64,000 bases of DNA from an uncultured Eubacteriales bacterium (GTDB lineage: Bacteria > Bacillota > Clostridia > Christensenellales > CALVMC01). Below the pieces are notes generated by a model. That model searched no databases. It saw only the letters and a program-made list of their open reading frames with translations, and had not been told where the DNA came from. How positions within the stretch are numbered: the first letter of the stretch is position 1; every line of letters begins with the position of its first letter. This document shows, one piece after another, positions 36,458-62,630 of the stretch. The stretch is taken from NCBI GenBank assembly GCA_949296455.1, contig CASFOZ010000002.1:71574-135573 (forward strand). Reading direction: 5' to 3'. The translations under genes were made by a program, and so were the position numbers.

Positions 36458-36767
36458 AAAATCACCTCGTAACGAGAATATCAAAGAGTATGATTTTTGT
36501 CAATCGTCAAAAAGTCAAAGCATTTAAAACATTATAAATAAATGATTAGATTCTTAAATTTAATAACTGTCCCTGCCTTTTCACTATTCTGCGTTTTACC
36601 ATAAAAAATTAAAACACTGTAACTTTATTCTTAAAACAATTTGTTGTACACTAATTAAAATTAAGTATTGAATAGTTTTAATAAAAATCATTAAATAAAT
36701 ATAAATAAATTTCTGAAAATTTTAAATATAAATTATCAGTATTAAATATTAAATTCAATATTAAATA

Positions 36768-36837
36768 TTAAAATCAGCGTTAATATTAAAATCAGTGTTA
36801 AATTAAAATCAGTGTTAAATTAAAATCAGTTGTTAAT
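36768..36837. repeat. Four tandem 17-18-bp repeats
   Basis: TTAAAATCAG occurs at 36768, 36786, 36803 and 36820, each followed by a GTTAA-like stretch, giving a period of 17-18 bp. A degenerate fifth copy lies near 36733. No spacer sequence separates them, so this is not CRISPR. Confidence 0.7.
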
Positions 36838-36866
36838 ATTAAATTACCTGTATTAAATATTAATGA

Positions 36867-43711: not shown

Positions 43712-44635
43712 TTAAGACAATAAATCTGCTGTATATTCATCGAAAACCATTTCTTTTTCGTTATAGGAAAAATAAACAGTTGTATTGTTAGTAGTCTGTT
43801 GATTATTTACGAACGCATCGGAAGGAGCAATAATCGTATATTGGTCGCAATTTTCATAACTTCTGATAAGTCCGTTTTTCCACATAGTAACCTTGTAGTA
43901 GTGTTTGGTAAGTTCTACGCCTGCACCTTCCCTTTTATTTTCGGAAAGAGCGTTTTCGATAATTACTTTACCGTAATCGCCGACACTTGCAACTAAATCG
44001 AATCCTATCGTAAAAGTATAGTAATCTCCCTCATCGACAGGCGCAGTAGTTACGGAAGCGTCCACCGTTTCTGCGGTGTGATTGAAAGTAAATAGTTTTT
44101 TAGGGTCGTCGAGAGTATAACCCGTATAATAATCGGCATAAGACATGGTAATTTTTTCATCCCATTCTTTAACACCGTAAATCCCGTCTGTCTCCCCGAA
44201 GGACTTAGCTTCCCTTCTCGTTACGGTATCGTTAATGACGGCAACTTCGGTAGCGCTTTCTGCAAATCCTCTGACTATAACTAGAACGGGAGAGTCTGTA
44301 ACTATAACGGTATTTTTGCTGTAAATATTTCCGTTCTGAACTATTTTAACGGACTCTATATTCATTTTTGCAAGAGGACTTTCTTCATCTCCTGCTTTTG
44401 CTTCTCCTATGGTAAGCATAGCGGTATACTTTTGGTCGTAATAATTTTTAACGCCCGCCTCGAACATTTCCCAAGCCGACATATTTTCGTTAATGGAATA
44501 TGTAACTTCAATGTCGGCAGGAAGGGTCTCGCCTATAATATCGGTATTTTGAATGTTGACATTACAAGCCGTTATTGAAAAAATCAATAAAACTGCCACT
44601 GTTGCTACTATAATAAATTTAGTACTTTTTTTCAT
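43712..44635 (-). CDS. Surface lipoprotein of unknown function, 307 aa
   Basis: The N-terminus MKKSTKFIIVATVAVLLIFSITAC has a type II signal peptide with the lipobox ITAC, so the mature protein starts at Cys24 and is lipid-anchored. LspA in this window would process it. The remaining ~280 residues are rich in Thr, Val and Asp and look all-beta, with no motif I recognise. The gene follows the giant protein by 19 nt with AGAGG upstream, and a strong terminator follows, so the two genes are one operon. A role in anchoring or assembling the giant protein is possible but only inferred from this position. LolA/LppX-like folds are an alternative. Confidence 0.85.
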   Translation of the reverse strand: MKKSTKFIIVATVAVLLIFSITACNVNIQNTDIIGETLPADIEVTYSINENMSAWEMFEAGVKNYYDQKYTAMLTIGEAKAGDEESPLAKMNIESVKIVQNGNIYSKNTVIVTDSPVLVIVRGFAESATEVAVINDTVTRREAKSFGETDGIYGVKEWDEKITMSYADYYTGYTLDDPKKLFTFNHTAETVDASVTTAPVDEGDYYTFTIGFDLVASVGDYGKVIIENALSENKREGAGVELTKHYYKVTMWKNGLIRSYENCDQYTIIAPSDAFVNNQQTTNNTTVYFSYNEKEMVFDEYTADLLS

Positions 44636-44654: not shown

Positions 44655-47600
44655 TTATTTTAATATATTTCTTCTTTTTTTAAGAAGAAAACATATATAC
44701 GCTAAACTTATTAACCCTAAAACGCCTAATATCGAAGCAATAACGATAAGAGCAATATTTCTGGTATCGGGCATAATGGTAAGATAACTTTCGCCTTCCG
44801 AATTATCGACGACTATAACGAAGTTTTTACCTGCGCTTAAATTCTCGGCACTGATAAGATAAGTACCCGTGCTTTCGCCTTCTTCTCTGACAAGTTCGCC
44901 GGTAATTTGAAGTTCATCTAAAAATTCCTGTCCTGATACGATTTCATAATAAAGCGTCGGGTCAAGGCTTCCTTGAAGTTTGCTGTTACCGTAAATTTTT
45001 ACGACAATAGTGGCAGGGATAATGGTGCATACGCCTTGTTTTTCGATAACAAACTCATAAAGTGCATTGAGGTTTTCGTCCGTCATTTCCCATTTAATCG
45101 GATATTCCCCTATTTCGGTTCCGTCGATTGACATTTTAACGCCCTGTTTTATATCCATAAGGATAAGAGAATGGAAATCGGGCAAATTGGAATAACTTGC
45201 TGTAAACTGCGGTTGTGTTCCGTAATTTACGGTAGTATCGTTTACAGTAACATAAATTTTCCATTTATTGACAGTAAGAGTACCTGCGACAAGTTGAATG
45301 TTATAGTTTGTCATATAAAGTTCTGTTGCAAAGTTGATATCGTAGGTACCGGGAACGATACGGGTGCCGACAGGAAGAGAGAAGTCTACTCTTGAATGTT
45401 CCGCCTCACTTATACCGGGAAGAGTATCGAGAGTGGAAATCACACCGTCTACTCTGTACTTATAATCGTTTATTATTTCGCCGTAAGTTATAGTAATATC
45501 TTCGAATTGAACGATAACCAATTTCTTTACGAGACGAGTCGTGTATTTGGCGCCGTTGAAATCGGAAATTAAATTATTGGTCGTTTTATCTTCTTCGGTA
45601 TAGAAACTTGCGGATACTTTTGTATTTTTAAACGCAGGGAGAGTTAACGCATAAATATTTGCATTTGGACTCATAGCATCTATACCCGATTTTACATATA
45701 TCGAAGCATAATCGCTTGTACCGTTAATAAGCATACCCGATGTAAGAAAATCGGAAAGCGTATATCCGTGATTTGCTTTACCGTTAATTAGTAAAGTATA
45801 TTGAGGTTCGGTATTATATTCGGTAGTTACATTATAACCTTTTCCGTCTTCTTCATCCATAATAATTTCTATTTCGGATTTTTCAACCGTAAGGCTGAAT
45901 TTTTCTAATTTTTCCGAGACGGAATTTTTACTTCCCCCATTTCCGTAAACTACGAGATTATAGAAACTTGTAACATCGTTTCCGTTTTCATCGTAAACTT
46001 TAAATGAATATTCGTAATTACCCGCCGTATAATCTAATTTACCGTTTGAAGAATTTGCATCACCCGAAGAAGCAAGTACGGCTTTAAGGATATGCGTATT
46101 GACGGTAAGGAAATTATTTTTAAGGAGTTCTATATAATAATCTCCGCCCTCTATTTTATTGCTCCAAGGTGCAATAACAGGGATATTTTCGGTATATTTA
46201 ATGGTTATTCCGTTGAAATAACTATCGGTGCCGTAATAACTTGTTATTCCGAAATTAACGGTTTTAGGATTAACTTTTATATTAAGTATTTTAATATTTT
46301 CGTAGTAACCTTGATAATCCAAAATTTCGTAATTGGAAAGTCTGTTTCCGTAAAGCGCTACATAAAGATTTTCGTTAGCGGGCGAAATCAAACCGGTAAC
46401 GTTTACGCCGTTACTGTTTTTGATAAATATAGCGTCCTTTAAAATATCCTGCACGGTGTCGCCGTTGACAAGATAGGAAGCCAAATAGGTTTCTAACTCT
46501 TTTAATGCGGCTTCTTTCCACCCCTCTTCGCCTGCAACGAGTTCACCGTAAATATATTCGAGAGTCTTGTAATTTTCGATTTTATTTAACTGTATTGACT
46601 TTTTATTTACAGTAATCGTATATGATGCGGAACTGATTATATAACTTGAAGATATATCTGCACCGAGACTGTTTAAAACTTTAAAGTCACTTGTATTCAC
46701 GGTATAAATTCCTGCGGGCAAACTACCAAATTGCGACTGCAAGAAAACTTCTCCGTTTGCATTAACAAGATTGAAATTACCGCTTATTGTATCGCCCGAA
46801 ACGAGTTTCGAAGTCAGATTCGAGAAAAATCCGTTTTCCAAATCGCTGATTGAAGAGGTATTTCCGTAAACAAAATTAATACTTTCATTTGAAGCGGATA
46901 CGCTCTTTGCGTAAATATTTCCTGTCAAATCGGATTTGACGCTGAATGTTACAAAATAATTGTTTTTAAGCTCTTCAATCAAATTAAGACCGCCTTTATC
47001 GCTAGTGAACGTAATATTTATTCCGCCTGCCGAAGCGGATTCGGCATTCTTTTTATTGCTGTATTTTGAAGAATAATTAAGTATAGCCGAATTTTCGTTA
47101 TAACTAAATACTGCCTTTAAAGAGCCTTCGGAAACAAGAGATAATTTATAATTATTAATATCTTCACCTTTGAGTCCGTTTGTATTAGATGTTTCGAAAA
47201 TGTAGTCTGAATCCGATTGAACGACGACATCGGCGGTTCCGTCGTAAACTTTATTTTTTGCCGAATCTTTTAAAGAAACCGTAACTTCGAGACGAGCCGA
47301 CGAAACGGTAACCACAAAATTCTTTCTTAACAATACTTCGTTATAATTATTAGTTACCGTTAATGTAATGTTATAACCGTTTGCGTAAACATTTTTTATA
47401 AATGCGGTATCGAATAAATCGGTTTTGTTTACCCCGTTTTCATCGGTATATGAACCTGAAAATTCGAAATTCAATTTTTCATTGACGGGTATTCCGTTAA
47501 GAAGATTGTTGAATACGGAATTGTCATACTCGCCTTTTTCGTTTTTCGAGCCGCCCAGAATAAGTACGGGTTTACCGTTTTCGATTTTTACATCGAAGAG

Positions 47601-50600
47601 ATATGCTGTATTTTTAATAGATTGAGCATTGCTGTTTTCTATATTATAGAATTTACCTTGGTCGGAAATATTTAAAATATTTGCTCTTATAGTACTGCTG
47701 TTACCGTTATAAGTATAAGAGTAATCGGGAGCGCCTATATATTGATATATTGCTTCTATAACCGTATCTTCCTGTAAAGAATTAAATTTATAAGAATACT
47801 TATAAGGACTCAAATAATTATCGCTGCCGGAAATTCTGTATCCGATAAATATATAAGAATTCAGCGCACCTATATAACTGTTTATGTTGCTTGAAATATT
47901 GCTGTCGTTTTCTTTGTCTTCATCCGAATAAATAAAGGTAACGGAACCGTTATTGTCAAGACTGTAATTTTTCTCGTCGTCCAGAACATTTCCGCTATCG
48001 GTTACAAACTGAACGGTTATTGCAAGTTTTCTCGTAAGAGTTATAGAAGAAGTTTTTGTAGCGAGATTAAAGTATTTAATAAAATCGGTACTCAAATTAC
48101 TTTCCGAAATCGAACTCATATCCGCAACATAACCGTTTTGAAGTTCGAGTCTTAAATTATTTGTAGAATCGTTATAGAATAAATTGAACTCGTCCGCATT
48201 TTTAAGATTTGCAATTTTTATATATAAACCTTTTATTCCGCTTAATTCTGAATAAGATTTTCCTGCGAAGGTATATTTGGTAAGAATATCGCTGCTGTCT
48301 GAAACGCCGGTAGCCGCAAGATAGGAATTTGTAACGGTTGCGCCTGTCAACATTTCCCCTATAATATAATCGCCTTCGGGACAAAGTATAACGTCGAATA
48401 AAACATTCTCTATTTTGCCTGTCGAAGAAAGAGTTTCGATAGCGTTGTTAATCATTGTTTTATCCAATTTAACTGTTCCGTTTTTAACGGTTCCGCTGAC
48501 GGTATCGAAGAAGGTATTGGAAACAATCAATCTTTTTCCGTTAAGGTCGAATACCATACCCGAGGGAACATTGAGCAATATAGCCTCATAACAGATAAGG
48601 TCGGACATTAATTTAGCAGTACCAGCCGTAAGGTTTGAATCTCTTAAAACCTTGACATCCTCGGCAGATTTAAGTTCGTAACCGCTTGCGCCCGTGTTCA
48701 AGGTGACCACAAACTTGAAGGTACTCGTTCTGTAAACATCGCTTTCTTTAAGGGTTTTGTAAGTCTCGGTGTAATAAGTTGTTCCTACAGTATTTCCGTC
48801 TGCATCCTTACCGGAATAATCGACGAATTTATAAAGCGTATTCTGAGCATTTTCTGAAATACTGAACACAAATTCGCCGCTTGAGGAAGAAGAGTTAAGC
48901 ATATTCTGAGACTGATAGTAAATTACATTTATTTTTTCGGTTCCGATAACAGGTTCCGAAGAATAATAAGATATCGCCCATACATTGTAATTTTTATTTG
49001 AGATACCGAATTTTATCTGTTTGTTTCCGAAGTCATAAAGCAAATCGTAAATATTTGCGGTATTGGAATTTAGAACGAAAGGACTGTCGTTTTCATAAGT
49101 AAGATTTACTGTAATAGTATTTCTTCCGCCCTGTATAACACCGTTAAAGTTTGTCAAAGTATAACTTTGAGTTAAATCGGATATACCGCTGCCCGAAAGG
49201 GTGATATTGTTTTCTATTCTGACCGTGACATTTGAAGAGTCAACGGAAGATATGCTTTTCATAAATGCTACAAAGTCAAGATAGTCGGTTTCGTCAGCTA
49301 TTGAAGTAACTGTAAATATTTTGATATTGACATTGTCATAGAAAGACATCGCACCGTTAAGGTTGTTCAATGTAACATTTGAATTTATGATATTATAAAC
49401 GAGTTTACCGTCGGAATCTTTATATTCCGCATAGATATAAGCGTCGTTACCGTTTGCTGATTTTACCGTGAAAATTCCCTCTGAGACGTTAACTTCATAA
49501 TATCCGTCTGCTTGATTTAATACATATATGTTTTTAAGATTTAAAATACTTCTTCCTGAATAATCCGTTAATAAGTAGGATTTTTCGACAACGCCGTTAT
49601 TTGTTGCAGCCACTAAATAATTGTCGTGCTGACTTGCGGCTGCCGACTTTCCGTCAACGATAAGCAGCGAAGAAATAGTTCCCGTATTTGTATTTACGAA
49701 AACAGGATAACTTGCGGAAGAAGTATAAGCCGTCTTTCCGTAATCGCCAAGGAAGGAAATTTTTAAAGAATTGATATTTCCGCTATTATTTTTTATAAAG
49801 CCTTCCTGATAAGAATACCCTGCCGAAGAATTGAGATTCAATTCTATTCCGCTTAAATTCCCCGAAAGAGTTTCAATAAAGTAATCTGAGGCGGAAGACA
49901 AGGAAATCGTGATTTTCCCTTTACCTTCTATACTGCCGGAAAATTCTTTAATCGAAGACGGATTAATTAATTCAATATTCGAATTATCCGCTATGCTGAA
50001 AGTTTTATCGGAAAGAATATCCTCATTGAAATTCGAAGCATTTGTAACCGAAGATAATAAATCAAAAACTGTTTGACCGTTTGTATTATTTATATTTTTA
50101 TCAATAAGAACGATAAAGCCGTGGAAAACATTATCGAGAGAAACGGTATCGATAAAATATTTATTGTCATTGTTATTTAAAATATTATAACCGCTTTCCG
50201 TTTTTTCAAAGGCTAAATCGGCAAATTCGGAATTATATATTTTAATAGCCTTTATTCTTTCCCCGTCGAATCCGGAAGAAAGAGTATTGGCTTTTTCATT
50301 TGCAAGAAGCATTTTGCAGTTATTTACATTTGAACCGGTAAACATATTTTCGGTAATATTATTGGAATAAATAAGTATATTAGAAACACTGCCCGAAGTG
50401 CTTGAAGAATTAATTTTCATACCCGCCGAAGTTTGGTCGTTTACTATAATATCGGTTATATCGCCAAGAACATTAAAGAGGCTTTTAATTTCCTGAATAT
50501 TTCCCGTAACATTTATAACTTTATCGTTACCGTTTAATGTAACAAATGAATTTATCGAAACATTCGAAGAATTGATTTTTGAAATATCTACAATCAAATT

Positions 50601-53600
50601 TTCTACAATATTAATCGTAACTATGTTACCCGACGAGCCTGAGACATATTTAAGAGCCAATAAATCGTCGCCATACTTTATATCCTTGCCGAATCTTAAA
50701 ATATATTTTTGATTTTCGGAAGTTTTTGCTATACTTACAGACGAAGAATTTGCAGTAACGGTATTATCGTATACGCCGTTTTTATAAAGAGTAAGTATAT
50801 TGTCTTTGGTAATGTTTGTGAAGGTAATAATATAATTACTAGCGTCTGAATTAGTAATTATAAAGTGTTCGCTAACATTTTCCAAGCCCTCAACGGAAAC
50901 GATATTTAAGCCTGTCGTATTATCGATATTTGCATAATCGGACATATTGAAAGAAACGGCAAAGGAAGAAATTGCTTTTTGAAGCTGTGAATTTTTATAT
51001 GAAGGAATAACTCTTCCTGCCATAACAGAGAAGTGGTCGATATATCCGAAGTTTTCTATCTGCGACAAACTTGTACCCTGCCTTAAAAAATCACCGCCGT
51101 TAAAGTAAACATAAACATTTGAAACCGAAGAGTTCGTTCTGCCTGCAAAACCGCCTGCATAAGCAAATTCCCCTGCAAGGATATTATTGAGATAGAAAGA
51201 AACATCGGTTAAGTTGATTATTGCAGAAGAAACATTTTCTTCGCTGTAAGAAAGATTTGCTCCTACAAAGCCGCCGAGATTGGCAGTCTGACCGGTACCG
51301 TAAACGGCTGAATTACTCATTGTCAAATTGGAATTTTCGATAACGCCCGATTCAGTCTTTCCTGCAAAACCGCCTACTGCATTATTTGCCGTAAGAGTGG
51401 AATTCGATACGGAAACATTAGAATTATAAATACCCGTATCTGAAACATTGAGACCTACAAGTCCGCCTGCGCTTCCGCCTGAAGAAACAATCGAAGAACC
51501 GTTTGTAATTTGTACGCTGCAAGAAATTATTTTTCCGTTATTTCTTCCTACAAGTCCGCCTGCGAAATTTGTTCCGCTGACAGTTCCCCCGGAAATTCTG
51601 ACGGTAACGCTTTCAACTGTTCCCTCGTTGATTGCGGCAAGAACACCTGTTATATCGGAGCCGGAAATAGTAGAACTCAATTCAACTAAAAGATTTTTAA
51701 CAGTAACATTTTTTGCAATGTAACCGAATAATCCCATATTTGCATATTCATTAGCAAACACTCCCGAAATTACGGATATGGTCTTATTGTTTCCGTCGAA
51801 TACGAATGAAAAATCCGAAGTAGTTACAATAGGTTGTATCAAGGCAGCCTGTGAAGAAGTAATTGTAATATTATTTACAAGTTTAAAGGTTTTAAGTGAC
51901 CCGTCTGAATTTGTAATTCCGCTGAATTTATTGCTGTTGACTGAATCTATAAAATAAATAAAGTCATTGAAATCGGCAATATCTGTTTTAATAAATACGG
52001 CATAAACATACTGAGCGGTACTGAATACCGACGCATTTAAATCGGATTCCGAACTTATTTGTTCTGGATTGATTTCACCTAAATTTTTATAGTAACCCGA
52101 AAAATACTGCATATTACTCGTGAATACAATATTATTTGAAATAAATTCAGCCGTCACCGAACCGTCGCCTATAATTTTCAGAACGGAAACAGCCGATTGA
52201 TTTATAGCGACAGATGAAAACTCGTCTATAACCGCCCATGCCGATGATGAACCTGTACCGTCAAGAACATAGATAACCGTTCCCGACGGAGCGGAAAGAT
52301 TATCCTGCGAAACATTTACGACCGCAACGGAACTCGATGTTCCCGAGTTATAAGCTATGGCTCCCGCAACGGTAGCATAAATACCGTTGTTTGCCTTTAT
52401 AGAACCGCCTTCGTTGAAATTAACGATAATTCCTTCAACGGTAAGAGTGTAAGCGGAATCCGAATAAATTGCGCCTGCGGCACCCGAACCGTTATGGGAA
52501 AGAGTTACGGAATTATTTATATCTATTTTAAGATTGGAAACGGCACCTGTGTTGAACAAGATACCGAGACCTATTTTGGAATACATAACATTCGATTCTA
52601 TGTTTCCGTAAAGAACAAAGGAAGAATTTGTGACCCTGCCCTGATTATTGTAAATAAGACCTGCAAACTCGTAAATATTTACCGAAGAATTTTGAGCGAC
52701 TGTAACTGCGATATTATTCAAAGTACCGTAATTATAAAGAACGGCAGCGGCAAATTTTGAAGAAGAATTTGTATTCCCTTCTATATTTACATTTACATCT
52801 GAAATACTACCGTAATTATAAATCGCTATCAATGCGCTATCGTTTTTTATTAAATTTTCCGAACCGGTAGTTATTAAATTGAGATTTAAAACCTTACCGC
52901 TTTCATCTATTCTGTTAAACAGAGCGGAATCGGGTTTTAATGTTATTGTGTTTCCGTTTCCTTTAAAGGTTCCTCTAAAACCTTTGGACTGAGTACCGGC
53001 AGAAAGATACGAAACGGAAGACAAATCTATCGAAGACAGAACATCAAAAGTCATCCCCCTTAAATCCAGTCCTGCCGAGACAGCATAGGAAAGTTCCATC
53101 ATATCGTCGGGAACGGAAATTGCAAGGTTTAAAGCAATCAGACTGATATCGAGATTTTTATCGTTTACGGTAGAAGAATAAGACTGTATATTATTTGAGC
53201 TTGTAACTCCGCTCAAACTTGTCTGAGTCTCGTAATTTCTGAACCAGTTAATGTAATAACCTGTTTTAACGTCTGTTTCGAATACGATACCCGAAGTCGA
53301 AAACTCATATCGGAAAATATCGTCGGAAGCAGCCGCAACAAATGTATTGATACCGGTAGGACGGGTAAAGTCAAAATAATTTTTGGCAAAACAAACAATC
53401 CAGCTGTTAGTTATGGAATAATTAGAAGAGCCTATCATTAAAAATTCTTTTTTCAAAGCTTCACTTTCACTGTTTGCAGTCTCGTTCAGATTGAAGCCAA
53501 ACCCGTCGCCTATTTCGAAAACAACGTTTTCGATTTTTCCGCCTAAATTTCTGATAAGACTTGCCTGCCTTACTGTCCCTAAACCTAAAATTCCGTCAGC

Positions 53601-56600
53601 CACTATTCTTATGTTTCTGATAGCGGCGTTTGTACCCATAACATCGATTAAATAACCTGTTTCGAGATTTTTTAATCTTAAAGTATATCCTTGTCCGTCA
53701 AGAGCAATATCGAATTTATTGAATCCTTTCGACAAACTGCCACTTAATAATATGTCGTTAGTTAAAAATGCGGTAATACCTATATAATCTTCGGCATCGT
53801 AATCAGTTATTTGATTCAATGAATCAATCAGATCTTCAAAATCTTTTTCACTTTCTATTCTGATTTTAAAGGAAGTTGCAAACATCTGAGTATTATTTGC
53901 CGATAATTCCTGGGGAGAATTTTGTATGAATATTTGATTGAAAACCCCGTTTTCTTTGAAGCCGATATAAATATTTCTACTTGATGTTACTTTCAATTTG
54001 TTATTGCTGTAACTGAAAACAATATCATAAATATCTATTGCGGCTGTACTTAAAATATTAACTCCGTTCAATAAATCGCCGTCGTTAACGCCGCTTAATT
54101 TAACGGGTATAGCCGATTTGTCCGTTCCGTTTTTAACAACAAGATAAGAGTTCTGAATTTCAGCATTATCTCCTACTGCCGCAGCGAATCTGCCCGAGGC
54201 TGTATTGGAATTTAATTGACTCTCGTTATAATAAACAACGGTATTTGTAACCTTTCCTTTTATAATACCCGCAAGTGCACCGGTATAATCGCTTGTCGAA
54301 TCTCCCAAGACGCTTTGATTCATTTTAACTATTAAATTTCTTACTTCCCCTTCGATTATACCGAAAATACCCGTATTTTCCTTACTCGTAAGACCTGCGT
54401 TTACGGTTATGGTATATCCGTTACCGTCATATGTGGCTTTGAACCCGTCTATTCCGATAGGGTCAAAGAAGGAATTTATCTCAATATCGGCACTTTGGAT
54501 ATAAACCAATCCCGGCACATTATAACTTGTAAAAATCTTATTCGCTATATTTGTCGATAAATTATTCAAGTCTGTAAAATTAGAAATAACGAACTTATTA
54601 TAGACTATATAAGAAACACCGTAATTTCCTACATCATAAGTTTTTTCAAGAACAGAAGCATCAGAATCCGTTTGGAAAATTTCACCGTTTCCTAAAATTA
54701 TGCTTATTTTATTTTTTATATCGTAATTATAATTAATTGCGCCGTTAGTTTTAATAAAATCAACAGTCAAATTTTGTGACCCTAACGATAAGCTGAATTT
54801 TATTCCTATACCGGGTAAATCGTTACGGACAAGGAAGGTTGTCGATTTTTCGTTCAACGCAGAACCCGAATTAGCGGAAAAGGCATAAAATTCCTGATAG
54901 TTTTTAAACCATACATTATTTACTTTTTCTGCATATTTTTGATATCCTGCAATACCGCCAATAGATGCCATATCGCTGATACCGTTTTCAAGTTCAATGT
55001 TATAGTCTAAATCAACCAGAATATTATTAATCGAACCTTCGCTGTACCCTGCGATGAAACCGAAGAACAGCGAATCTTTTCCTACAGTAATATCACCGTT
55101 TGTCTTTATTGTCAAATTGAAAATCTGACCGGCAGCTCCTAATCTTCCTACAAGACCTGAATACATTAACCCGTTTTCAAAACTGAAATTCGAACCTAAA
55201 GTTATTGTATTATAATTACCGTTAATTGACCCGTTGAATGTATAAACTTCTCCCTCCGGCACTCCTAATGGCTGATATCCGCTGATATCCATAACAAAAT
55301 TGTTTGTGATATTTATAGTAATACCCTTTAAATCGAAATCGTGAGAATAACCGGCTACATTTGAGAAATCGGTTGCACTATTAACGTCAAAGTCGAGATA
55401 AACGGCAAAGTAGTCTTTATTTGACATACTCTGAGAAAATTCAAAAGAATTAATATTCTGTCCCGAACCGGAAACTTCATCTTCGTAAAAACCGCTGCCG
55501 CCTAAGCCGTTCACGGTAATGATACCGGCGTCCATAGAAATATCAACTACGTTGGCTCCGTTCACAGAGTTAGAAGAAGTATAGCCTATAATATTCAAAC
55601 GGTTAAGTCCGAAATTATTTTCCAAAGCGTCGCTGTAAGCATTGTTTTTTGCAATAAGCCATACATTTGACAAGGCGGAATTGATATAACCGAAAACGCC
55701 GCCCGGAAGACTCTTTGCAGAACTTACATTCACCTGACCTTTCGAACCCTCGGAAGCAGAACCGTATTTCACGTTATTTCTTATAAGTACGACAGAATTT
55801 GAAACAGTACCCTCGCAGTAAGCAGCAAGAGCGCCGGCATAACTCGTACCTGTAATAATACCGTCGAGAATAACGGCAATATTTGAAATTCTGCCGTTAC
55901 TTCCCATATATCCTATAAGACCTGCATAATCGGCATAAAGATTTACATTTGAAGAAATCGTAACTTTATGGTTATTGCCGTTAACAACTCCGTTGAAGCC
56001 GGTATAAACGTTGCCGTAAACATCGGTCACGGAAAAATTGGGATTTCCGAGAGGAACGAATTCTGCGTCCGACAGAATATCGAGATTGCTGTTTATATTA
56101 ATCCATATACCGAAAAGATAAGCGGTATTCGAAGTATTGAATATATTTGCGATATTTACTAAATCGGAATAAGAATTTATTTCGGTAACGATCTGCGAAA
56201 GATAATAATCGAGACCTGTTCCGGTAGCCGGCAGATTATAGACATAAGTCAAAGTTTTCGACGTATCGACATCGAAAGCATATCCTGTATTTCTGTTATA
56301 AACTTTGACCGAGTTATTGTAAGGGAAGATAATTTCAGAACTTGCGACAACAACAGAGACGCTTATAGTATTACCTGTAAACTCGGCATTAATGGTACCG
56401 TTACCTGCGACGCTGAAAACATTTATACCGCTGCTGTCGAAATTGCTGGGATTTATAATAAGATTATTTCTTTTAACAAGCCAGGAGTTAACATCTGAAT
56501 AAACCGTCGTGTCGTAAGAAACGCCTGCGAAATATTTGGCTGCTATATTATTATCTGCAAGGTAGGTCAAAAGACCGTTAACGGTGCCTCCGATTCTGTA

Positions 56601-59600
56601 TCCTATCGCACCTGCGGCAAACCCTGACGACGCATTGAGATTTTTAATTTTACCTAAAATATAAACTGAACTTTGCGAAATATTTGCATAACCTGCGCCT
56701 AAAAGTCCGCCGACAGCGCCGCCCAAAATACTGAAAGCCCCGAAATTAACGCTGTCCGAATAATCGTTACCTTCGCTGTAAATACCGTAACCCTGCGCAA
56801 TATTTACGGTAGTATTAAATAAATTACCGTTAAGCATCTGAACGCCCAAAGCGCCGCCTGCAACGGAACCCGTGTAAATGTTTCTTGAAACATTTACGGT
56901 AGTAAAATAAACGGAAGAATTGGTATAGTTTTCAGCAACCACTCCGCCGAAAGTACTTATAAAAGAAACTTTATCGTCATATACGGAAGAGCCTATAATA
57001 TTTACCGTATTGACAAGATTGGAAAGACTTGAACTTCCGACGCTTGCTTGATTAAAAAAGACTAACCCGCCGAATTTGTAAACATTTATCGGATCGAAAT
57101 CGCTGTTATAATCGGCTTTGATACCTGCAACAATTCCAGCCTGATTATAAACGATACCGCCTGAAAAAGCCACTCTCGATTGATTTGCGGATATCGATTC
57201 GCTTCCGACAATACCGTATATGTAAGTTGCCGCAGAGTAAATATTACCGTTATTGTAATTAGCAAGGCCGCCGAAAACGGCATTATTGGAAACAGGCAAC
57301 AGTTTAGCGCCTGCACCTAATCTGAAAAAGGTTGTATAACCCAAATCGGCAGAACTTTCAATCGTTCCGAAATTCCACCAAGCGATACCGCCGAAACTGT
57401 CGGTTTTAACCGAGCCCGTACTTTGAGAAGAGAAGGTACCTATTTCGACCGAGCAGTCGGAAATTAAGCCGTTTTCGTTATTTCTTAACACAATTCCGCT
57501 AAACAAACCTTCAACGGAACCGATTTCTATATATGACGAATAACGGATATTTACATCTTCGATAGTACCGTTATTATAATAAGCAATACCGTAGAAATTG
57601 GAATGAACACTGGAATTTGCGGAATTGTTTAAATAAGTAATATTTACATTATTTATTCCGCCGTAGCGTGAAATGTTGTAAAACAGCGAAACGAAATAAT
57701 TCGTTCCCGAAGAAAGATAAAAGTTTATATTATAACCGTTTCCGTTAAGTATGCTGTTAATTTCGTTTGAACAATAAAAGCCGCTGAACATATTCCCTGT
57801 ATTGATATCGGAAGCCGTTCCTATATTGAAATCTATATTGCTAACGAGATAGAACTGAATACCTTTATAAGAACCAACTGTCTGGTTAAAGTAGGCTCTC
57901 AAATCCGATTCGGAATCGATCTGATTTTGTATATAATACACTGCAATATTTTTACCGTCGTAAGTATAAGAGCCGCTGCTTGAATAATAGGAAGATAAAT
58001 CGGTGCTTATAGAATAAGTTGTTCCGTCGTCGTAGTCCAAAAAGCCTATAAAAGGAATTTCTTCGCCTTTCGAATTGAGAATGGTTTGCTTTGCCGTAAC
58101 GGTGAGTTGCCCTAAGGAATCCTTCGTTACGGAAAGGGCTCCGAAGTTTTCATTATCCGCACCCTGCCCGTAAACCTTGATTAACGTTGCTTTATAAGTT
58201 GAATTAGCATTAGCTGCTCCTGCCGCAATTTTAAGAGAAGAGGTATCGTAATTGCCGCTAACTATAACTAAATTATTAAGAAACTGCACCCCGCCCGTTC
58301 CGATAACGGCATTGGGAAGATTAGCCGAATTGAGTCCGTTAGAAAGTACTACCGCATTGTTTGTTATGACAGAACCGTTTACAGCCTGACCTGCTACAAG
58401 TCCGTGAGTACCCGTAAAAGGAGAATTTTTAATATTGTTATTTACATAAACAATACATCCGTTTACAGTGCCGCCGCTTTCAACCTTACCCGCAACACCG
58501 CCGAATATGCTTGTATTATCCGTTGCGCTTATTGTGCCGCCCGAAAAACTTACCGAACAGTTATTTATCCTGCCGCCCGATAAGACTTCTTTTGCAATTG
58601 CGCCGAAAGTTGAATTATTTAAACTCAATACCGCAGTGGAAGTAAATGTTACATTTATATTATCGACTCTGCCGCTTAACTCTTTTACAAGAGCGGCACC
58701 TTGTACCTGAGTTCCCGTAAAAGTCCCCGAATAATTTAAGTTAAGATTAATAATAGTCCCGGAAGCCGCTACGGAATTGAAAATACTTCCTAATGTTTTA
58801 TTAACGGTAATAGTGTAATTGTTTCCGTTGAAAGTGCCTTCGAAATTGTTAAACAGGCTAACCGTGACCGAATTAAGGAAAGTCAAATCCGTTCTGAGAT
58901 TAATAACGGAATTTTTAAATGTAACGCCGGCTTGGGCAAGCCTGTTAAAATCAGACAGATTATTTATGTCCGTGCTGTAAACGAAGAAAGCGCCGACTAC
59001 ACTTCCCGTATGGGAAGCCGTCAAGCTTATAGTAATTTCATTTGAAGCATTTGTAATTGAGCCGCTTATTTGGGGATTTCCTGTCGCACTATAATAATTT
59101 CCGTATCTTATCTCGTTAAAGTAATTGATTTTAACGGTACCTGCGCTTATAGTTGCGGTAAATTTATCCATAAACCCTGCGCCTTTACCGTAACTACTAC
59201 CTTCTTCACCCACAAGAATTTCAACGGCATTATAGTAAGAAACATAACTTCTGACGGTTGTAATTTCATTGTTTATATTTATACTTTTATCTATACCGGC
59301 AAATGTATTATTATTTTCATAATCAATACGAATATTACTAAAATTATATAAACCGCCAACAAAATGGTATCTATAAGAAAAACCAGTTTTGTTATCCTCT
59401 CCCGTAGTTGTATCAACGCCGATAAAATAACTCTTCGTATAAGGAACATTATTTGCCTGATCCTTTGCAATAAAGTCCTCGTAAATTACCGCACAGTTTT
59501 TAGTTACAACATTTATCGGAAATAAGGCGTTTCTGTGAGCAGTCGCCAATGTAAATAAAGAGATAAACTCCGAAACGCTGTTTAAATATGCCCACTCTTT

Positions 59601-62600
59601 ATTTCTTTTCTTTCCCGGGGCGGAAGCTGCCGACGAATAATCGAGTCCGCTTAAATACTCCGCAACGGTATCTATGGAATTGAATGCATTAAGACTTGTA
59701 AATATAACTGAAATATCTTGAAAAGAAGTGCCATCATCTCTTGAACCATTAACTCTTCCACTGAACCCGCCTATATAAACGCCTAAATCGGAATTTCTCA
59801 GTTCGATTGTATTCATATCGAACTTTCCGCCGCTGTATAAAGTAGGACTCTCTATATTAGATTCGACATAAGCTGCGCCGTCGAATTTTTTAACGAATTT
59901 GTTGACTGCAACAGAAATTCTATTATAAGTACCGCCCTCTATTCTGCCTATAAACCCGCCTAAATACATGAGCATGCTGTAAGCGCTGTAACCGTAAATG
60001 GTTCCTGCATTTTCAGAGCTGCAATCGGAAATGCTTGTGCGGTAACTTTTTCCTGCAAACCCGCCCGCACCGCTTCGAACATTTGCGGCGTATGCTATAA
60101 CGGAAGCCTCGCCTACTTTATCCACACTGTGCTGAGAGGACACAAAAGGATTGGAACTTGCTATATAGCTGTTTGAAGATGATATAACCTTTACATTCTG
60201 AATTGTAGCAGAATCAGTATCATTTTCCTCTAAACCTACAGCCCCCGCAAAGGCACCCGCAAAAACTTCCTTAAAGACGCCGTCTGCACCTTGCGCCACT
60301 ATATAAGCGTTATTTACTATATTCAAATTTGTAACGGTAGCCTTATTTGTTATAGCGCCGAAAACGCCTGCGTAGTACATTTCATATATAACCGAGCCTT
60401 GATTTAAGGTTATGGTATAACCGTTGCCGTAAAATTTTGAGCCGAAACTGACGCTTGCACTGCCGAGGGGTAAAAGTCTGCTTTCAAAGGTTATATTCGC
60501 CATAAGATTTATTTCAATTCCCTCTATATAACCTGCTCCCATAGAGTAATCGTATGCTACCCTGTTAAAGTCGGCTGCCGAATAAATTTCATCCTTGAAA
60601 AACTCGATTAAAATCATTTTTCCAATACCGTCAAACCTTTCCGTTATAGACTCTCCTAAAGTAAAATCCAGAGCGGAAAGGGTATTGCCATCAAACCGTG
60701 CCGAAAAAAGGGAACTGTTTTGAGAATATAAGTTCGTGTTCGTGCTAATCTGTTTTTGCTTGTTTAAATTATAAGTTTCTTCTAAACTGAGCTCACCATA
60801 ATCTGCCGTATACACGCCGTAATTGCCGCTGTCGTCACGGTATAAATTTTCGGGATTTTTAATCGATAAAATAAGGTCGCTGCCGCCTGCTATAACCTCC
60901 GCAAAGCCGCCGCCTGCAATAAAAACCTTTTTACAGTAATTTAAATCATAGGTATCCAAAAGCCCCGTTACAGGCGCTAAAACTAAAGTATTAATAAATT
61001 TATTTTTTATGCTATCAGGAAGATTGGAATTACCGAAAATCGCATTTGCGTCGTTTCTATTATAAGTCTCCGTCCAGTTTGTACCGTCCATCGAATTATT
61101 TTTAATTACAGAATAATTCTGAATAACCGAAGAGGATATGGCGTTTGAAAAAATTACAGCATTGTTTGAAAATGTAATATTTGAATTACTTTCATCAATA
61201 TTACCTACAAAACCCCCTGTATACTGATCTGCATAATAATTTGCGGAAGTTGTGCTGACAGCACTGCCGTTTAAAGAGAGTACCGAATTTGATATATTGC
61301 CGTTAACATACCCCGCAAAACCGCCTGCATAAAACTTATTTTCTTTTGAATCTTCGTCATAAATCTGATAAGCGAAATTTAAAACCGAAGAAGTTGCTAT
61401 AACATAAACTTTATCCACCGCAGAATCGAGCCTTGCAAAGCCGAAAGAGTTGTATGTATTTGTGTTATTCCCAGAACTTGTAGTTCTCGGCGACGCCATA
61501 TAACTGCAACCGTTAAGATTGAATACAATATTACTACTGTTCCCGCTAAGAGCGCCTACGGTACCCATATAAAAGGCTCCTGCGCGTTTTGTAGTAAAGG
61601 TATTTGCTAAGCTTGAAGAAGTTGCGTTTACCGTTATATCGGTTAATGTCCCCTGCGCATGAGCAATAAATGTACCTAAATACAATTCCATAGAGACATT
61701 GTTTGCAGGCTGCTCGCTTGTACTTGTTAATGTTATACTTAACTCTTCGGCATTAAAAATTACATTGTTTAATGAAGAAGAATTTGTTATTCGAGCTATA
61801 AAACCGCCCATTGCCGTCGTATGTGTGGCGGTGAAATCTGCATTGTCGAGTTCTGAAAGCAAATTTAAATTTTTGACCGTTGCAGTTATATTTTGAAATG
61901 CAACATTATTTGCATACCCGAAAACCGCACCGAAATAGTTTTCGACATCGTTCTTGTCATTCTGAGTATACTTAATAGTACTTCCGTTACCGTTTATTAC
62001 AATATTTAGATTTTTTACGGTAGCATTTTGAATATTTGCAAACAAAAGCCCGAAAGCGCTGCCGTATGCGGAAGCACTAACTTCAAACTCGGTAGCCGAA
62101 CCGGTATAATTGATTGTTATGGTATGACCTCTGCCGTCGAAAGTAACTTTGTTACTTGAATCCTTGCCCGATAAATATAAGAAATGCCCGTGTTTTGGAC
62201 TGATTGTTATATCATTAGTGAGATAAAAGTAAGAACTATTATAATTACCGTAAGCCTTGTTATTATTACCATCATTATCGAATATTGTATTACTGGGTCT
62301 GCTTAAATCAGAAGAAGTAATTTCAGTTCCGCTTTGAAGTTCTCCGCTAACCGTTGCGCCGCCCGTCACGTTTCTTCCGTTGAAAGTTTCTTCGGAAAGG
62401 ACGTTGCCGTAGGAAGTTTCGTAAGAGATATTGCCGTCATAACTTTGATCTGCCGCAAACTCATAGTCGAGTTTGTCGCTGCCGTATGTAATATCGCTCT
62501 TTTCGGAAGATAAAGAAATAAGACTTTGAGTATTAAGACCGCTGAAAATACAGGAAAAAACTATTGCCGCAATCAGCAACAATACGATAAATCTGACCGA

Positions 62601-62630
62601 TTTTAAACTGACAAATTTTCTTTTAGTCAT
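44655..62630 (-). CDS. Giant beta-helix surface protein, 5,991 aa
   Basis: One unbroken frame of 5,991 codons. Residues 1-40 form a basic, then hydrophobic export signal. From about 80 to 4,870 come about 14 modules of 200-600 residues. Each begins with a strand like IxSxSDLxxLA, then a beta-helix segment with a core such as FNGNNYTITV, GLUG-like turns (GGFAGKTESGVIENS) and a small beta domain. Module starts are near 80, 680, 1222, 1570, 2150, 2415, 2680, 2924, 3172, 3548, 3983, 4182, 4443 and 4652. Residues ~4,870-5,950 look like YDG/MBG Ig-like domains (KVYDGTADV near 5124, VNYGTQPQF near 5797, YGNSKLQGSLDP near 5878). A transmembrane helix (about 5958-5985) and RRNILK end the protein; there is no LPXTG. 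GGGGGAG precedes the ATG. Adhesion or polysaccharide contact is likely, not shown. Confidence 0.92.
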   Translation of the reverse strand: MTKRKFVSLKSVRFIVLLLIAAIVFSCIFSGLNTQSLISLSSEKSDITYGSDKLDYEFAADQSYDGNISYETSYGNVLSEETFNGRNVTGGATVSGELQSGTEITSSDLSRPSNTIFDNDGNNNKAYGNYNSSYFYLTNDITISPKHGHFLYLSGKDSSNKVTFDGRGHTITINYTGSATEFEVSASAYGSAFGLLFANIQNATVKNLNIVINGNGSTIKYTQNDKNDVENYFGAVFGYANNVAFQNITATVKNLNLLSELDNADFTATHTTAMGGFIARITNSSSLNNVIFNAEELSITLTSTSEQPANNVSMELYLGTFIAHAQGTLTDITVNATSSSLANTFTTKRAGAFYMGTVGALSGNSSNIVFNLNGCSYMASPRTTSSGNNTNTYNSFGFARLDSAVDKVYVIATSSVLNFAYQIYDEDSKENKFYAGGFAGYVNGNISNSVLSLNGSAVSTTSANYYADQYTGGFVGNIDESNSNITFSNNAVIFSNAISSSVIQNYSVIKNNSMDGTNWTETYNRNDANAIFGNSNLPDSIKNKFINTLVLAPVTGLLDTYDLNYCKKVFIAGGGFAEVIAGGSDLILSIKNPENLYRDDSGNYGVYTADYGELSLEETYNLNKQKQISTNTNLYSQNSSLFSARFDGNTLSALDFTLGESITERFDGIGKMILIEFFKDEIYSAADFNRVAYDYSMGAGYIEGIEINLMANITFESRLLPLGSASVSFGSKFYGNGYTITLNQGSVIYEMYYAGVFGAITNKATVTNLNIVNNAYIVAQGADGVFKEVFAGAFAGAVGLEENDTDSATIQNVKVISSSNSYIASSNPFVSSQHSVDKVGEASVIAYAANVRSGAGGFAGKSYRTSISDCSSENAGTIYGYSAYSMLMYLGGFIGRIEGGTYNRISVAVNKFVKKFDGAAYVESNIESPTLYSGGKFDMNTIELRNSDLGVYIGGFSGRVNGSRDDGTSFQDISVIFTSLNAFNSIDTVAEYLSGLDYSSAASAPGKKRNKEWAYLNSVSEFISLFTLATAHRNALFPINVVTKNCAVIYEDFIAKDQANNVPYTKSYFIGVDTTTGEDNKTGFSYRYHFVGGLYNFSNIRIDYENNNTFAGIDKSININNEITTVRSYVSYYNAVEILVGEEGSSYGKGAGFMDKFTATISAGTVKINYFNEIRYGNYYSATGNPQISGSITNASNEITISLTASHTGSVVGAFFVYSTDINNLSDFNRLAQAGVTFKNSVINLRTDLTFLNSVTVSLFNNFEGTFNGNNYTITVNKTLGSIFNSVAASGTIINLNLNYSGTFTGTQVQGAALVKELSGRVDNINVTFTSTAVLSLNNSTFGAIAKEVLSGGRINNCSVSFSGGTISATDNTSIFGGVAGKVESGGTVNGCIVYVNNNIKNSPFTGTHGLVAGQAVNGSVITNNAVVLSNGLNSANLPNAVIGTGGVQFLNNLVIVSGNYDTSSLKIAAGAANANSTYKATLIKVYGQGADNENFGALSVTKDSLGQLTVTAKQTILNSKGEEIPFIGFLDYDDGTTYSISTDLSSYYSSSGSYTYDGKNIAVYYIQNQIDSESDLRAYFNQTVGSYKGIQFYLVSNIDFNIGTASDINTGNMFSGFYCSNEINSILNGNGYNINFYLSSGTNYFVSLFYNISRYGGINNVNITYLNNSANSSVHSNFYGIAYYNNGTIEDVNIRYSSYIEIGSVEGLFSGIVLRNNENGLISDCSVEIGTFSSQSTGSVKTDSFGGIAWWNFGTIESSADLGYTTFFRLGAGAKLLPVSNNAVFGGLANYNNGNIYSAATYIYGIVGSESISANQSRVAFSGGIVYNQAGIVAGIKADYNSDFDPINVYKFGGLVFFNQASVGSSSLSNLVNTVNIIGSSVYDDKVSFISTFGGVVAENYTNSSVYFTTVNVSRNIYTGSVAGGALGVQMLNGNLFNTTVNIAQGYGIYSEGNDYSDSVNFGAFSILGGAVGGLLGAGYANISQSSVYILGKIKNLNASSGFAAGAIGYRIGGTVNGLLTYLADNNIAAKYFAGVSYDTTVYSDVNSWLVKRNNLIINPSNFDSSGINVFSVAGNGTINAEFTGNTISVSVVVASSEIIFPYNNSVKVYNRNTGYAFDVDTSKTLTYVYNLPATGTGLDYYLSQIVTEINSYSDLVNIANIFNTSNTAYLFGIWININSNLDILSDAEFVPLGNPNFSVTDVYGNVYTGFNGVVNGNNHKVTISSNVNLYADYAGLIGYMGSNGRISNIAVILDGIITGTSYAGALAAYCEGTVSNSVVLIRNNVKYGSASEGSKGQVNVSSAKSLPGGVFGYINSALSNVWLIAKNNAYSDALENNFGLNRLNIIGYTSSNSVNGANVVDISMDAGIITVNGLGGSGFYEDEVSGSGQNINSFEFSQSMSNKDYFAVYLDFDVNSATDFSNVAGYSHDFDLKGITINITNNFVMDISGYQPLGVPEGEVYTFNGSINGNYNTITLGSNFSFENGLMYSGLVGRLGAAGQIFNLTIKTNGDITVGKDSLFFGFIAGYSEGSINNILVDLDYNIELENGISDMASIGGIAGYQKYAEKVNNVWFKNYQEFYAFSANSGSALNEKSTTFLVRNDLPGIGIKFSLSLGSQNLTVDFIKTNGAINYNYDIKNKISIILGNGEIFQTDSDASVLEKTYDVGNYGVSYIVYNKFVISNFTDLNNLSTNIANKIFTSYNVPGLVYIQSADIEINSFFDPIGIDGFKATYDGNGYTITVNAGLTSKENTGIFGIIEGEVRNLIVKMNQSVLGDSTSDYTGALAGIIKGKVTNTVVYYNESQLNSNTASGRFAAAVGDNAEIQNSYLVVKNGTDKSAIPVKLSGVNDGDLLNGVNILSTAAIDIYDIVFSYSNNKLKVTSSRNIYIGFKENGVFNQIFIQNSPQELSANNTQMFATSFKIRIESEKDFEDLIDSLNQITDYDAEDYIGITAFLTNDILLSGSLSKGFNKFDIALDGQGYTLRLKNLETGYLIDVMGTNAAIRNIRIVADGILGLGTVRQASLIRNLGGKIENVVFEIGDGFGFNLNETANSESEALKKEFLMIGSSNYSITNSWIVCFAKNYFDFTRPTGINTFVAAASDDIFRYEFSTSGIVFETDVKTGYYINWFRNYETQTSLSGVTSSNNIQSYSSTVNDKNLDISLIALNLAISVPDDMMELSYAVSAGLDLRGMTFDVLSSIDLSSVSYLSAGTQSKGFRGTFKGNGNTITLKPDSALFNRIDESGKVLNLNLITTGSENLIKNDSALIAIYNYGSISDVNVNIEGNTNSSSKFAAAVLYNYGTLNNIAVTVAQNSSVNIYEFAGLIYNNQGRVTNSSFVLYGNIESNVMYSKIGLGILFNTGAVSNLKIDINNSVTLSHNGSGAAGAIYSDSAYTLTVEGIIVNFNEGGSIKANNGIYATVAGAIAYNSGTSSSVAVVNVSQDNLSAPSGTVIYVLDGTGSSSAWAVIDEFSSVAINQSAVSVLKIIGDGSVTAEFISNNIVFTSNMQYFSGYYKNLGEINPEQISSESDLNASVFSTAQYVYAVFIKTDIADFNDFIYFIDSVNSNKFSGITNSDGSLKTFKLVNNITITSSQAALIQPIVTTSDFSFVFDGNNKTISVISGVFANEYANMGLFGYIAKNVTVKNLLVELSSTISGSDITGVLAAINEGTVESVTVRISGGTVSGTNFAGGLVGRNNGKIISCSVQITNGSSIVSSGGSAGGLVGLNVSDTGIYNSNVSVSNSTLTANNAVGGFAGKTESGVIENSNLTMSNSAVYGTGQTANLGGFVGANLSYSEENVSSAIINLTDVSFYLNNILAGEFAYAGGFAGRTNSSVSNVYVYFNGGDFLRQGTSLSQIENFGYIDHFSVMAGRVIPSYKNSQLQKAISSFAVSFNMSDYANIDNTTGLNIVSVEGLENVSEHFIITNSDASNYIITFTNITKDNILTLYKNGVYDNTVTANSSSVSIAKTSENQKYILRFGKDIKYGDDLLALKYVSGSSGNIVTINIVENLIVDISKINSSNVSINSFVTLNGNDKVINVTGNIQEIKSLFNVLGDITDIIVNDQTSAGMKINSSSTSGSVSNILIYSNNITENMFTGSNVNNCKMLLANEKANTLSSGFDGERIKAIKIYNSEFADLAFEKTESGYNILNNNDNKYFIDTVSLDNVFHGFIVLIDKNINNTNGQTVFDLLSSVTNASNFNEDILSDKTFSIADNSNIELINPSSIKEFSGSIEGKGKITISLSSASDYFIETLSGNLSGIELNLNSSAGYSYQEGFIKNNSGNINSLKISFLGDYGKTAYTSSASYPVFVNTNTGTISSLLIVDGKSAAASQHDNYLVAATNNGVVEKSYLLTDYSGRSILNLKNIYVLNQADGYYEVNVSEGIFTVKSANGNDAYIYAEYKDSDGKLVYNIINSNVTLNNLNGAMSFYDNVNIKIFTVTSIADETDYLDFVAFMKSISSVDSSNVTVRIENNITLSGSGISDLTQSYTLTNFNGVIQGGRNTITVNLTYENDSPFVLNSNTANIYDLLYDFGNKQIKFGISNKNYNVWAISYYSSEPVIGTEKINVIYYQSQNMLNSSSSSGEFVFSISENAQNTLYKFVDYSGKDADGNTVGTTYYTETYKTLKESDVYRTSTFKFVVTLNTGASGYELKSAEDVKVLRDSNLTAGTAKLMSDLICYEAILLNVPSGMVFDLNGKRLIVSNTFFDTVSGTVKNGTVKLDKTMINNAIETLSSTGKIENVLFDVILCPEGDYIIGEMLTGATVTNSYLAATGVSDSSDILTKYTFAGKSYSELSGIKGLYIKIANLKNADEFNLFYNDSTNNLRLELQNGYVADMSSISESNLSTDFIKYFNLATKTSSITLTRKLAITVQFVTDSGNVLDDEKNYSLDNNGSVTFIYSDEDKENDSNISSNINSYIGALNSYIFIGYRISGSDNYLSPYKYSYKFNSLQEDTVIEAIYQYIGAPDYSYTYNGNSSTIRANILNISDQGKFYNIENSNAQSIKNTAYLFDVKIENGKPVLILGGSKNEKGEYDNSVFNNLLNGIPVNEKLNFEFSGSYTDENGVNKTDLFDTAFIKNVYANGYNITLTVTNNYNEVLLRKNFVVTVSSARLEVTVSLKDSAKNKVYDGTADVVVQSDSDYIFETSNTNGLKGEDINNYKLSLVSEGSLKAVFSYNENSAILNYSSKYSNKKNAESASAGGINITFTSDKGGLNLIEELKNNYFVTFSVKSDLTGNIYAKSVSASNESINFVYGNTSSISDLENGFFSNLTSKLVSGDTISGNFNLVNANGEVFLQSQFGSLPAGIYTVNTSDFKVLNSLGADISSSYIISSASYTITVNKKSIQLNKIENYKTLEYIYGELVAGEEGWKEAALKELETYLASYLVNGDTVQDILKDAIFIKNSNGVNVTGLISPANENLYVALYGNRLSNYEILDYQGYYENIKILNIKVNPKTVNFGITSYYGTDSYFNGITIKYTENIPVIAPWSNKIEGGDYYIELLKNNFLTVNTHILKAVLASSGDANSSNGKLDYTAGNYEYSFKVYDENGNDVTSFYNLVVYGNGGSKNSVSEKLEKFSLTVEKSEIEIIMDEEDGKGYNVTTEYNTEPQYTLLINGKANHGYTLSDFLTSGMLINGTSDYASIYVKSGIDAMSPNANIYALTLPAFKNTKVSASFYTEEDKTTNNLISDFNGAKYTTRLVKKLVIVQFEDITITYGEIINDYKYRVDGVISTLDTLPGISEAEHSRVDFSLPVGTRIVPGTYDINFATELYMTNYNIQLVAGTLTVNKWKIYVTVNDTTVNYGTQPQFTASYSNLPDFHSLILMDIKQGVKMSIDGTEIGEYPIKWEMTDENLNALYEFVIEKQGVCTIIPATIVVKIYGNSKLQGSLDPTLYYEIVSGQEFLDELQITGELVREEGESTGTYLISAENLSAGKNFVIVVDNSEGESYLTIMPDTRNIALIVIASILGVLGLISLAYICFLLKKRRNILK

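Follow-up and report, generated by a model that had tools for sequence, protein, structure and literature searches.

A pair of adjacent giant genes of near-constant size in two families of uncultured gut bacteria: a probable GLUG-type beta-helix protein and a predicted lipoprotein built of repeats

The window analysed here, a stretch of 64,000 nucleotides from an uncultured Eubacteriales bacterium, carries on its minus strand a very large gene, B, preceded by the end of a still larger gene, A, and followed by a small gene, L (Table 1). A lies mostly outside the window; the whole gene (G000:C2:134340-161669) is directly upstream of B and encodes 9,109 aa. Probable homologs of L, 324-328 aa long, occupy the equivalent place in a second family, with an E of 4e-4 in a profile comparison over the last 100 residues. 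Together the three genes take up about 46 kb, or 3.3% of a 1.4 Mb genome.

Table 1. Features of the A-B-L locus, in window coordinates
Feature	Position	Strand	Basis
Gene A, 3' end (410 codons), last Ig-like domains	62767..64000	-	ORF, extension past window
Gene B, predicted surface protein (14 modules, MBG/Ig-like region, C-terminal TM)	44655..62630	-	ORF; 5,987-aa ortholog
B N-terminal signal peptide region, aa 1-35	62526..62630	-	TM-like window + sequence
B module 1, aa 103-680	60591..62324	-	SxxDF layout, both profiles
B module 2, aa 681-1220	58971..60590	-	SxxDF layout, both profiles
B module 3, aa 1221-1569	57924..58970	-	SxxDF layout, both profiles
B module 4, aa 1570-2149	56184..57923	-	SxxDF layout, both profiles
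B module 5, aa 2150-2414, model confident for residues 1-180	55389..56183	-	both profiles + model
B module 6, aa 2415-2680	54591..55388	-	SxxDF layout, both profiles
B module 7, aa 2681-2923	53862..54590	-	SxxDF layout, both profiles
B module 8, aa 2924-3171	53118..53861	-	SxxDF layout, both profiles
B module 9, aa 3172-3549	51984..53117	-	SxxDF layout, both profiles
B module 10, aa 3550-3978, Pfam GLUG match at 51315-51386	50697..51983	-	both profiles + Pfam
B module 11, aa 3979-4175, divergent	50106..50696	-	inclusive profile only
B module 12, aa 4176-4442, divergent	49305..50105	-	inclusive profile; independent profile weak
B module 13, aa 4443-4651	48678..49304	-	both profiles
B module 14, aa 4652-4867, divergent	48030..48677	-	inclusive profile; noise with independent profile
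B C-terminal Ig-like/MBG region, aa 4868-5955; MBG_2 at 44805-45005, 45273-45515	44766..48029	-	Pfam
B C-terminal TM helix + KKRRNILK, without LPXTG	44676..44765	-	TM-like window
Gene L, 307-aa predicted lipoprotein, 19 bp gap downstream of B	43712..44635	-	ORF

A preliminary description of this DNA had read B as one uninterrupted gene of 5,991 codons, and the ORF listing and the translation bear this out, with an ATG start and no internal stops. The same frame recurs in an independent genome (G001), which belongs to a second species in its genus and in which the frame is 5,987 aa long and 92% identical, which excludes an assembly artefact. Every complete B protein has exactly two TM-like windows, one N-terminal and one near the C-terminus, the latter being followed in B by a basic tail. 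As the same description had it, this membrane anchor has no LPXTG: the only LPxTG-like string lies in the middle of the protein, at aa 2133, and a C-terminal LPXTG is absent from the eight B proteins compared. Sortase was found neither in this genome nor in 20 relatives (21 genomes checked), which fits anchoring of B in the membrane and not in the wall. Anchoring by sortase was rejected on these two grounds, and the string 'MPDTR' in front of the TM helix was dropped as a variant sorting signal, there being no sortase and no conservation of the string in the second family. The YDG/MBG-type beta domains expected towards the C-terminus were recovered as MBG_2, the sole family above its cut-off in the Pfam scan of B. 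Beyond GLUG (see below) and MBG_2, Pfam and NCBIfam recognise almost nothing in the protein: the searches gave no adhesive Pfam domain, no enzyme family at a meaningful level, no DUF5776 or SH3b-like C-terminal domain, and no TPS or haemagglutinin domain. Long internal DNA repeats were not found in B either, nor were long tandem repeats such as underlie phase variation.

The core motif, which had been counted 13-14 times, each time behind an SxxDF strand, is far in excess of chance. In the strict form [FLIVY]xGxxxTIT it occurs seven times in B, as against a mean of 0.09 and a maximum of 2 in 2,000 shuffles, and in a relaxed form 17 times (shuffled mean 2.0, maximum 8). When laid out from SxxDF-type starts, B comprises 14 modules of 197 to 580 residues, each opened by the SxxDF helix/strand, and all 14 are recovered by an inclusive profile that takes in B itself, in agreement with the original estimate of about 14. 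An independent profile was built solely from modules of the other family, without any B sequence. With this profile, modules 1-10 and 13 score 19.8-85.6 bits (best shuffle 4.2) and module 12 scores 9.0 bits, weakly above shuffles, whereas modules 11 and 14 are indistinguishable from noise. Judged by their profile scores, the last four modules are divergent. The Pfam GLUG match occurs at a single place, in module 10 (23.5 bits, cut-off 20.5); the remaining modules stay below the curated cut-off, although three members of the module alignment do match GLUG. The residues conserved among the modules are structural glycines and aromatics, without a conserved catalytic set. As to family, B would be placed with the giant GLUG-type beta-helix surface proteins, an ordinary assignment. 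The earlier remark that its plan matches no named adhesin stands at the level of the family, but modules of the GLUG type are already known.

A structural model of modules 5 and 6 is confident only over the first 180 residues, in blocks mostly of pLDDT 60-91. In this part, which belongs to module 5, a capping helix is followed by serial short strands; the second module is of low confidence. The Foldseek neighbours of the model are nearly all right-handed beta-helices, with M26 IgA1 proteases at the top and, among the others, the beta-solenoid of the L. reuteri serine-rich repeat protein (SRRP), phage tailspikes, pectate lyases and polygalacturonases. The best E is 0.11, and none of the matches falls below 0.001. 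The first 180 residues and the neighbours they attract thus favour the proposed beta-helix, whereas the E values and the unconfident second module fall short of establishing it; on this model, the B modules are likely, though not proven, to be beta-helices.

The neighbouring protein A is of a different make. It opens with a signal peptide, and the FFVAC/N that comes next is lipobox-like. In the A proteins examined from six families, a single hydrophobic segment at the N-terminus precedes a cysteine whose surroundings mostly fit a lipobox, and a TM helix is absent from the C-terminus. From this ...AC-type pattern, A is predicted to be a lipoprotein. With a repeat profile seeded on motifs that are apparent by inspection, a unit of about 310 aa is detected 23 times between residues 48 and 7,199 (E 1e-11 to 1e-32); the copies are followed by Ig-like domains with an FDPY...GNxxGGYQ signature, one of which gives a Big_4 match. 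The unit itself matched no Pfam or NCBIfam family and no PDB sequence. Its model is moderately confident (pLDDT 58), the confident part being a strand-helix-strand-strand-strand core, and Foldseek returned no fold match for it, none being at E below 0.001. By eye, the hairpin pattern 'xxYYxGxxxYLDLxxxGLxKIKIxxLDL', which every unit shows, resembles that of LolA/LppX-like lipoproteins, a likeness that we take to be suggestive. An assignment of the units to DUF6612 or to LolA-like proteins was nevertheless unsupported: no lipid-binding lipoprotein family of Pfam or NCBIfam matched, and comparison with DUF6612 members gave 2 bits with HMMER and an E of 0.61 with hhalign, equal to shuffles. Naming this unit would annotate proteins of 7-12 thousand residues across many gut genomes. 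In the A protein of this genome, a strongly hydrophobic hairpin (aa 7268-7325) lies between the repeats and the Ig-like domains, within the stretch where dN/dS against the second species is highest (0.63); it is not conserved in other families.

Codon comparison of B between the two species of the genus gave dN 0.043, dS 0.213 and dN/dS 0.20, and the corresponding dN/dS for A is 0.13. The supposition that selection keeps the frame is thereby upheld, and the comparison indicates that B is under purifying selection over its whole length. The N-terminal 1,500 residues evolve fastest (dN/dS 0.3-0.56, as against 0.1-0.26 elsewhere), which would fit an exposed contact end formed by the N-terminal modules. 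Between the same two genomes, dS in A drops from about 0.45-0.5 over its initial 1,500 codons to about 0.1 near the 3' end, and is low (0.11-0.22) in most of B. The low values in the 3' part of A and in most of B suggest recent exchange or gene conversion.

The pair is also present in a second family (f16). In three genomes A proteins of 10,277, about 10,458 and 10,531 aa are followed, after about 106 bp, by B proteins of 6,394, 6,383 and 6,373 aa; in two more, the 3' end of A adjoins a complete B of 6,313 or 6,216 aa, and in another a B of 6,345 aa comes after an A of 9,880 aa that contains an assembly gap. Orthologs of B of similar length occur in at least eight genomes besides that of the second species, and B adjoins A in every genome of both families in which the contig could be followed through. 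This adjacency was found only in these two families. Identity between their B proteins is about 23-27%, and G+C is 0.37 in this genome as against 0.47-0.59 in the second family, which together imply an old pair. Between the families, module lengths along the series of 14 correlate with r 0.964-0.974 (permutation p 1e-5). Modules in matching positions are on average the most alike, the mean double-centred score being 0.31 at offset 0, 0.22 at offset -1 and lower at other offsets, and none of 100,000 permutations reached the observed sum. Orthology of single modules is weak, only 1-6 of the 14 modules in each species having their best match on the diagonal. A promoter-like site lies just before B, such sites occurring at about the number expected by chance, so that A and B may or may not share a transcript.

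The profile of the A unit reaches beyond the two families. Of 396 genomes of the order, 93 match it; they represent six families, and the matches lie mostly within frames several thousand residues long, those read out ranging from 2,731 to 12,524 aa. Among 391 genomes sampled from the class no match lay outside the order, the only two that matched belonging to it. A stands without a recognisable adjacent B in the four other families whose surroundings were read, which indicates that A does not depend on B. In one of them (f6; G129:C2:123872-137203), an A of 7,367 aa is followed by a frame of 4,443 aa that has a TM helix at its C-terminus. No B module was detected in this frame with the module profile, yet it is possibly a functional counterpart of B. 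In another (f24; G149:C26:45920-52177), a protein of 2,085 aa near A contains a stretch, HETSHVLGAPDLYH, that by eye resembles M6-type metalloproteases. Two unlinked frames of 6,139 and 6,122 aa (G056:C2:28307-46726 and G058:C11:255931-274299; families f3 and f6) carry several B-type modules and adjoin small exported proteins with an 'AWFTD/AWFSD' signature that by eye resembles TasA/camelysin-type genes. Although close to B in length, they were rejected as B orthologs, having few modules and different neighbours and not lying beside A.

Bacterial giant proteins are usually described as poorly conserved or variable in length. That a giant pair keeps both its length and its module plan suggests a structural role, and its near-constant size across two uncultured gut families suggests a fixed cell-surface structure and not a fast-changing adhesin. 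Building on what is directly observed (an intact frame under selection, signals of topology, the plan of the modules, the order of the genes and their conservation), we give a somewhat better than even chance, a probability of roughly 0.55, to the reading that A and B are the two halves of a conserved cell-surface structure of fixed size, a layer or a fibre. A would be exported and lipid-anchored at its N-terminus, with the 23 units projecting outward and the Ig-like domains at the end. A signal peptide at the N-terminus of B would direct its export, and the C-terminal helix would hold it in the cytoplasmic membrane, the MBG/Ig-like region serving as a stalk that starts near the membrane and crosses the wall, with the 14 beta-helix modules outside. 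Anchored at opposite ends and encoded together with the small lipoprotein L, the two would most likely form the layer or fibre, the length of which would be under selection, and the outer modules of B may contact other surfaces or glycans. Surface location, physical partnership, rod geometry and ligand contact are what we infer for the two proteins; their constant size points to a structural element (layer, fibre or spacer) more than to a variable adhesin. It is tempting to go further and to regard the pair as an undescribed two-giant surface machine of one gut-bacterial order, in which A would string together about 23 copies of one new domain and B would be a beta-helix partner of fixed length. 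We advance this tentatively and consider it rather unlikely; within such a machine, A would possibly be a tube carrying lipids or other ligands, or a rod that sets length.

Alternatively, B may be a conventional giant fibrillar adhesin, anchored in the membrane, with beta-helix heads that bind glycans or host proteins on an MBG/Ig-like stalk, its pairing with A being incidental. The domain types and the topology of B fit this explanation, as do its weak nearest folds, which include the L. reuteri adhesin and the tailspikes. GLUG-type modules are a common component of numerous smaller frames in the order, and comparable giants of Apilactobacillus kunkeei have been interpreted as adhesins (PMC12863079). 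However, the near-constant length and module plan of B and its lack of long DNA repeats set it apart from adhesins of variable length, the Pfam scan gave no known adhesive domain, and an incidental pairing is hard to reconcile with an A beside every B whose contig could be followed in the two families. We regard an adhesin as possible but doubtful. The remaining explanations appear less probable still. If the A units were tandem LolA/LppX-like half-barrels for lipids or hydrophobic ligands, A could form a conduit through a thick envelope, with B as its partner or outer casing; the hairpin likeness seen by eye, the N-terminal lipobox and the core of the unit model would agree with this, but the missing lipid-binding family, the negative DUF6612 comparison and the empty Foldseek search make it quite unlikely. 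That B is a carbohydrate-active enzyme with many catalytic beta-helix modules, like a polysaccharide lyase or hydrolase, is suggested by the pectate lyases, polygalacturonases and tailspikes among its structural neighbours; since neither an enzyme family nor conserved catalytic residues were found, this is very improbable. An assembly artefact or a decaying gene might be suspected in a draft assembly of 19 contigs, but hardly merits consideration given the same frame in an independent genome, the further orthologs of similar length, the low dN/dS and the lack of stops.

No published report of the A-B pair was found in the open-access literature. Among published systems, the Giant1-5 cluster of A. 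kunkeei comes closest; consecutive genes there encode exported surface proteins of 3,000-8,000 aa and occupy 6% of a 1.5 Mb genome (PMC12863079). Both loci have consecutive giants in a small gut-associated genome, with asparagine-rich sequences and a beta-solenoid domain, the latter a likely one in B. The A. kunkeei proteins, however, have one N-terminal beta-solenoid, long alpha-helical/beta-sheet repeats and C-terminal DUF5776/SH3b-like ends (PMC12863079), whereas B has 14 likely beta-helix modules, carries a TM helix at its C-terminus and adjoins a protein, predicted to be lipid-anchored, whose repeat is unrelated. With the GLUG-motif proteins (PF07581), B shares its one GLUG match, and M26 IgA1 proteases are its nearest solved folds; it differs from these proteins in having one module over the cut-off, no protease domain and a fixed plan of 14 modules. 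To count as a fibrillar adhesin, a protein needs one or more known adhesive Pfam domains in addition to stalk domains (PMC8286594). Like B, such adhesins are long multidomain surface proteins with repeated stalk-type domains (PMC8286594, PMC9210967), but B has no recognised adhesive domain and no sortase motif, and its length is fixed. As no adhesive domain was found, B is not filed among them, even if it may work like one. The adhesin-like proteins of gut methanogens combine right-handed beta-helix regions, likely in B as well, and Ig-like domains with anchoring by a membrane helix and not by sortase; they reach 4,691 aa, their membrane helix is usually N-terminal and, in the part of the source considered here, they are without a lipid-anchored giant partner (PMC11532034). 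Finally, B had been placed among the largest bacterial surface proteins. This needs qualifying, since its neighbour A has 9,109 aa and a length of up to 39,678 aa is cited for giant ORFs of Omnitrophota, which are described as mostly poorly conserved, with few annotated domains (PMC10066038). Their products are likewise exported or membrane proteins of great size, with a proposed role in attachment or predation (PMC10066038); for A and B, in contrast, architecture and length are kept between families.

Several other large frames occur in this genome. A protein of 1,889 aa (G000 L023:3382-9051, on G000:C4), a smaller relative, contains a GLUG motif and Listeria-Bacteroides repeats besides two modules of the B type. 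At a contig end (G000:C4:140470-155100; L022:4470-19100) lies a frame encoding 4,876 aa in which MBG domains occur, and its 3' end, which overlaps another frame, may be misassembled or frameshifted. A third, of 2,767 aa (G000:C2:169894-178197), has an N-terminal membrane helix and measures 2,778 aa in the second species of the genus. Within the window, spoIVA, encoding the stage IV sporulation ATPase, lies at 36929-38407, and its presence suggests that this small-genome lineage may form spores. Just below spoIVA, at 36735-36843, there is an intergenic tandem repeat of six copies of 17 bp.
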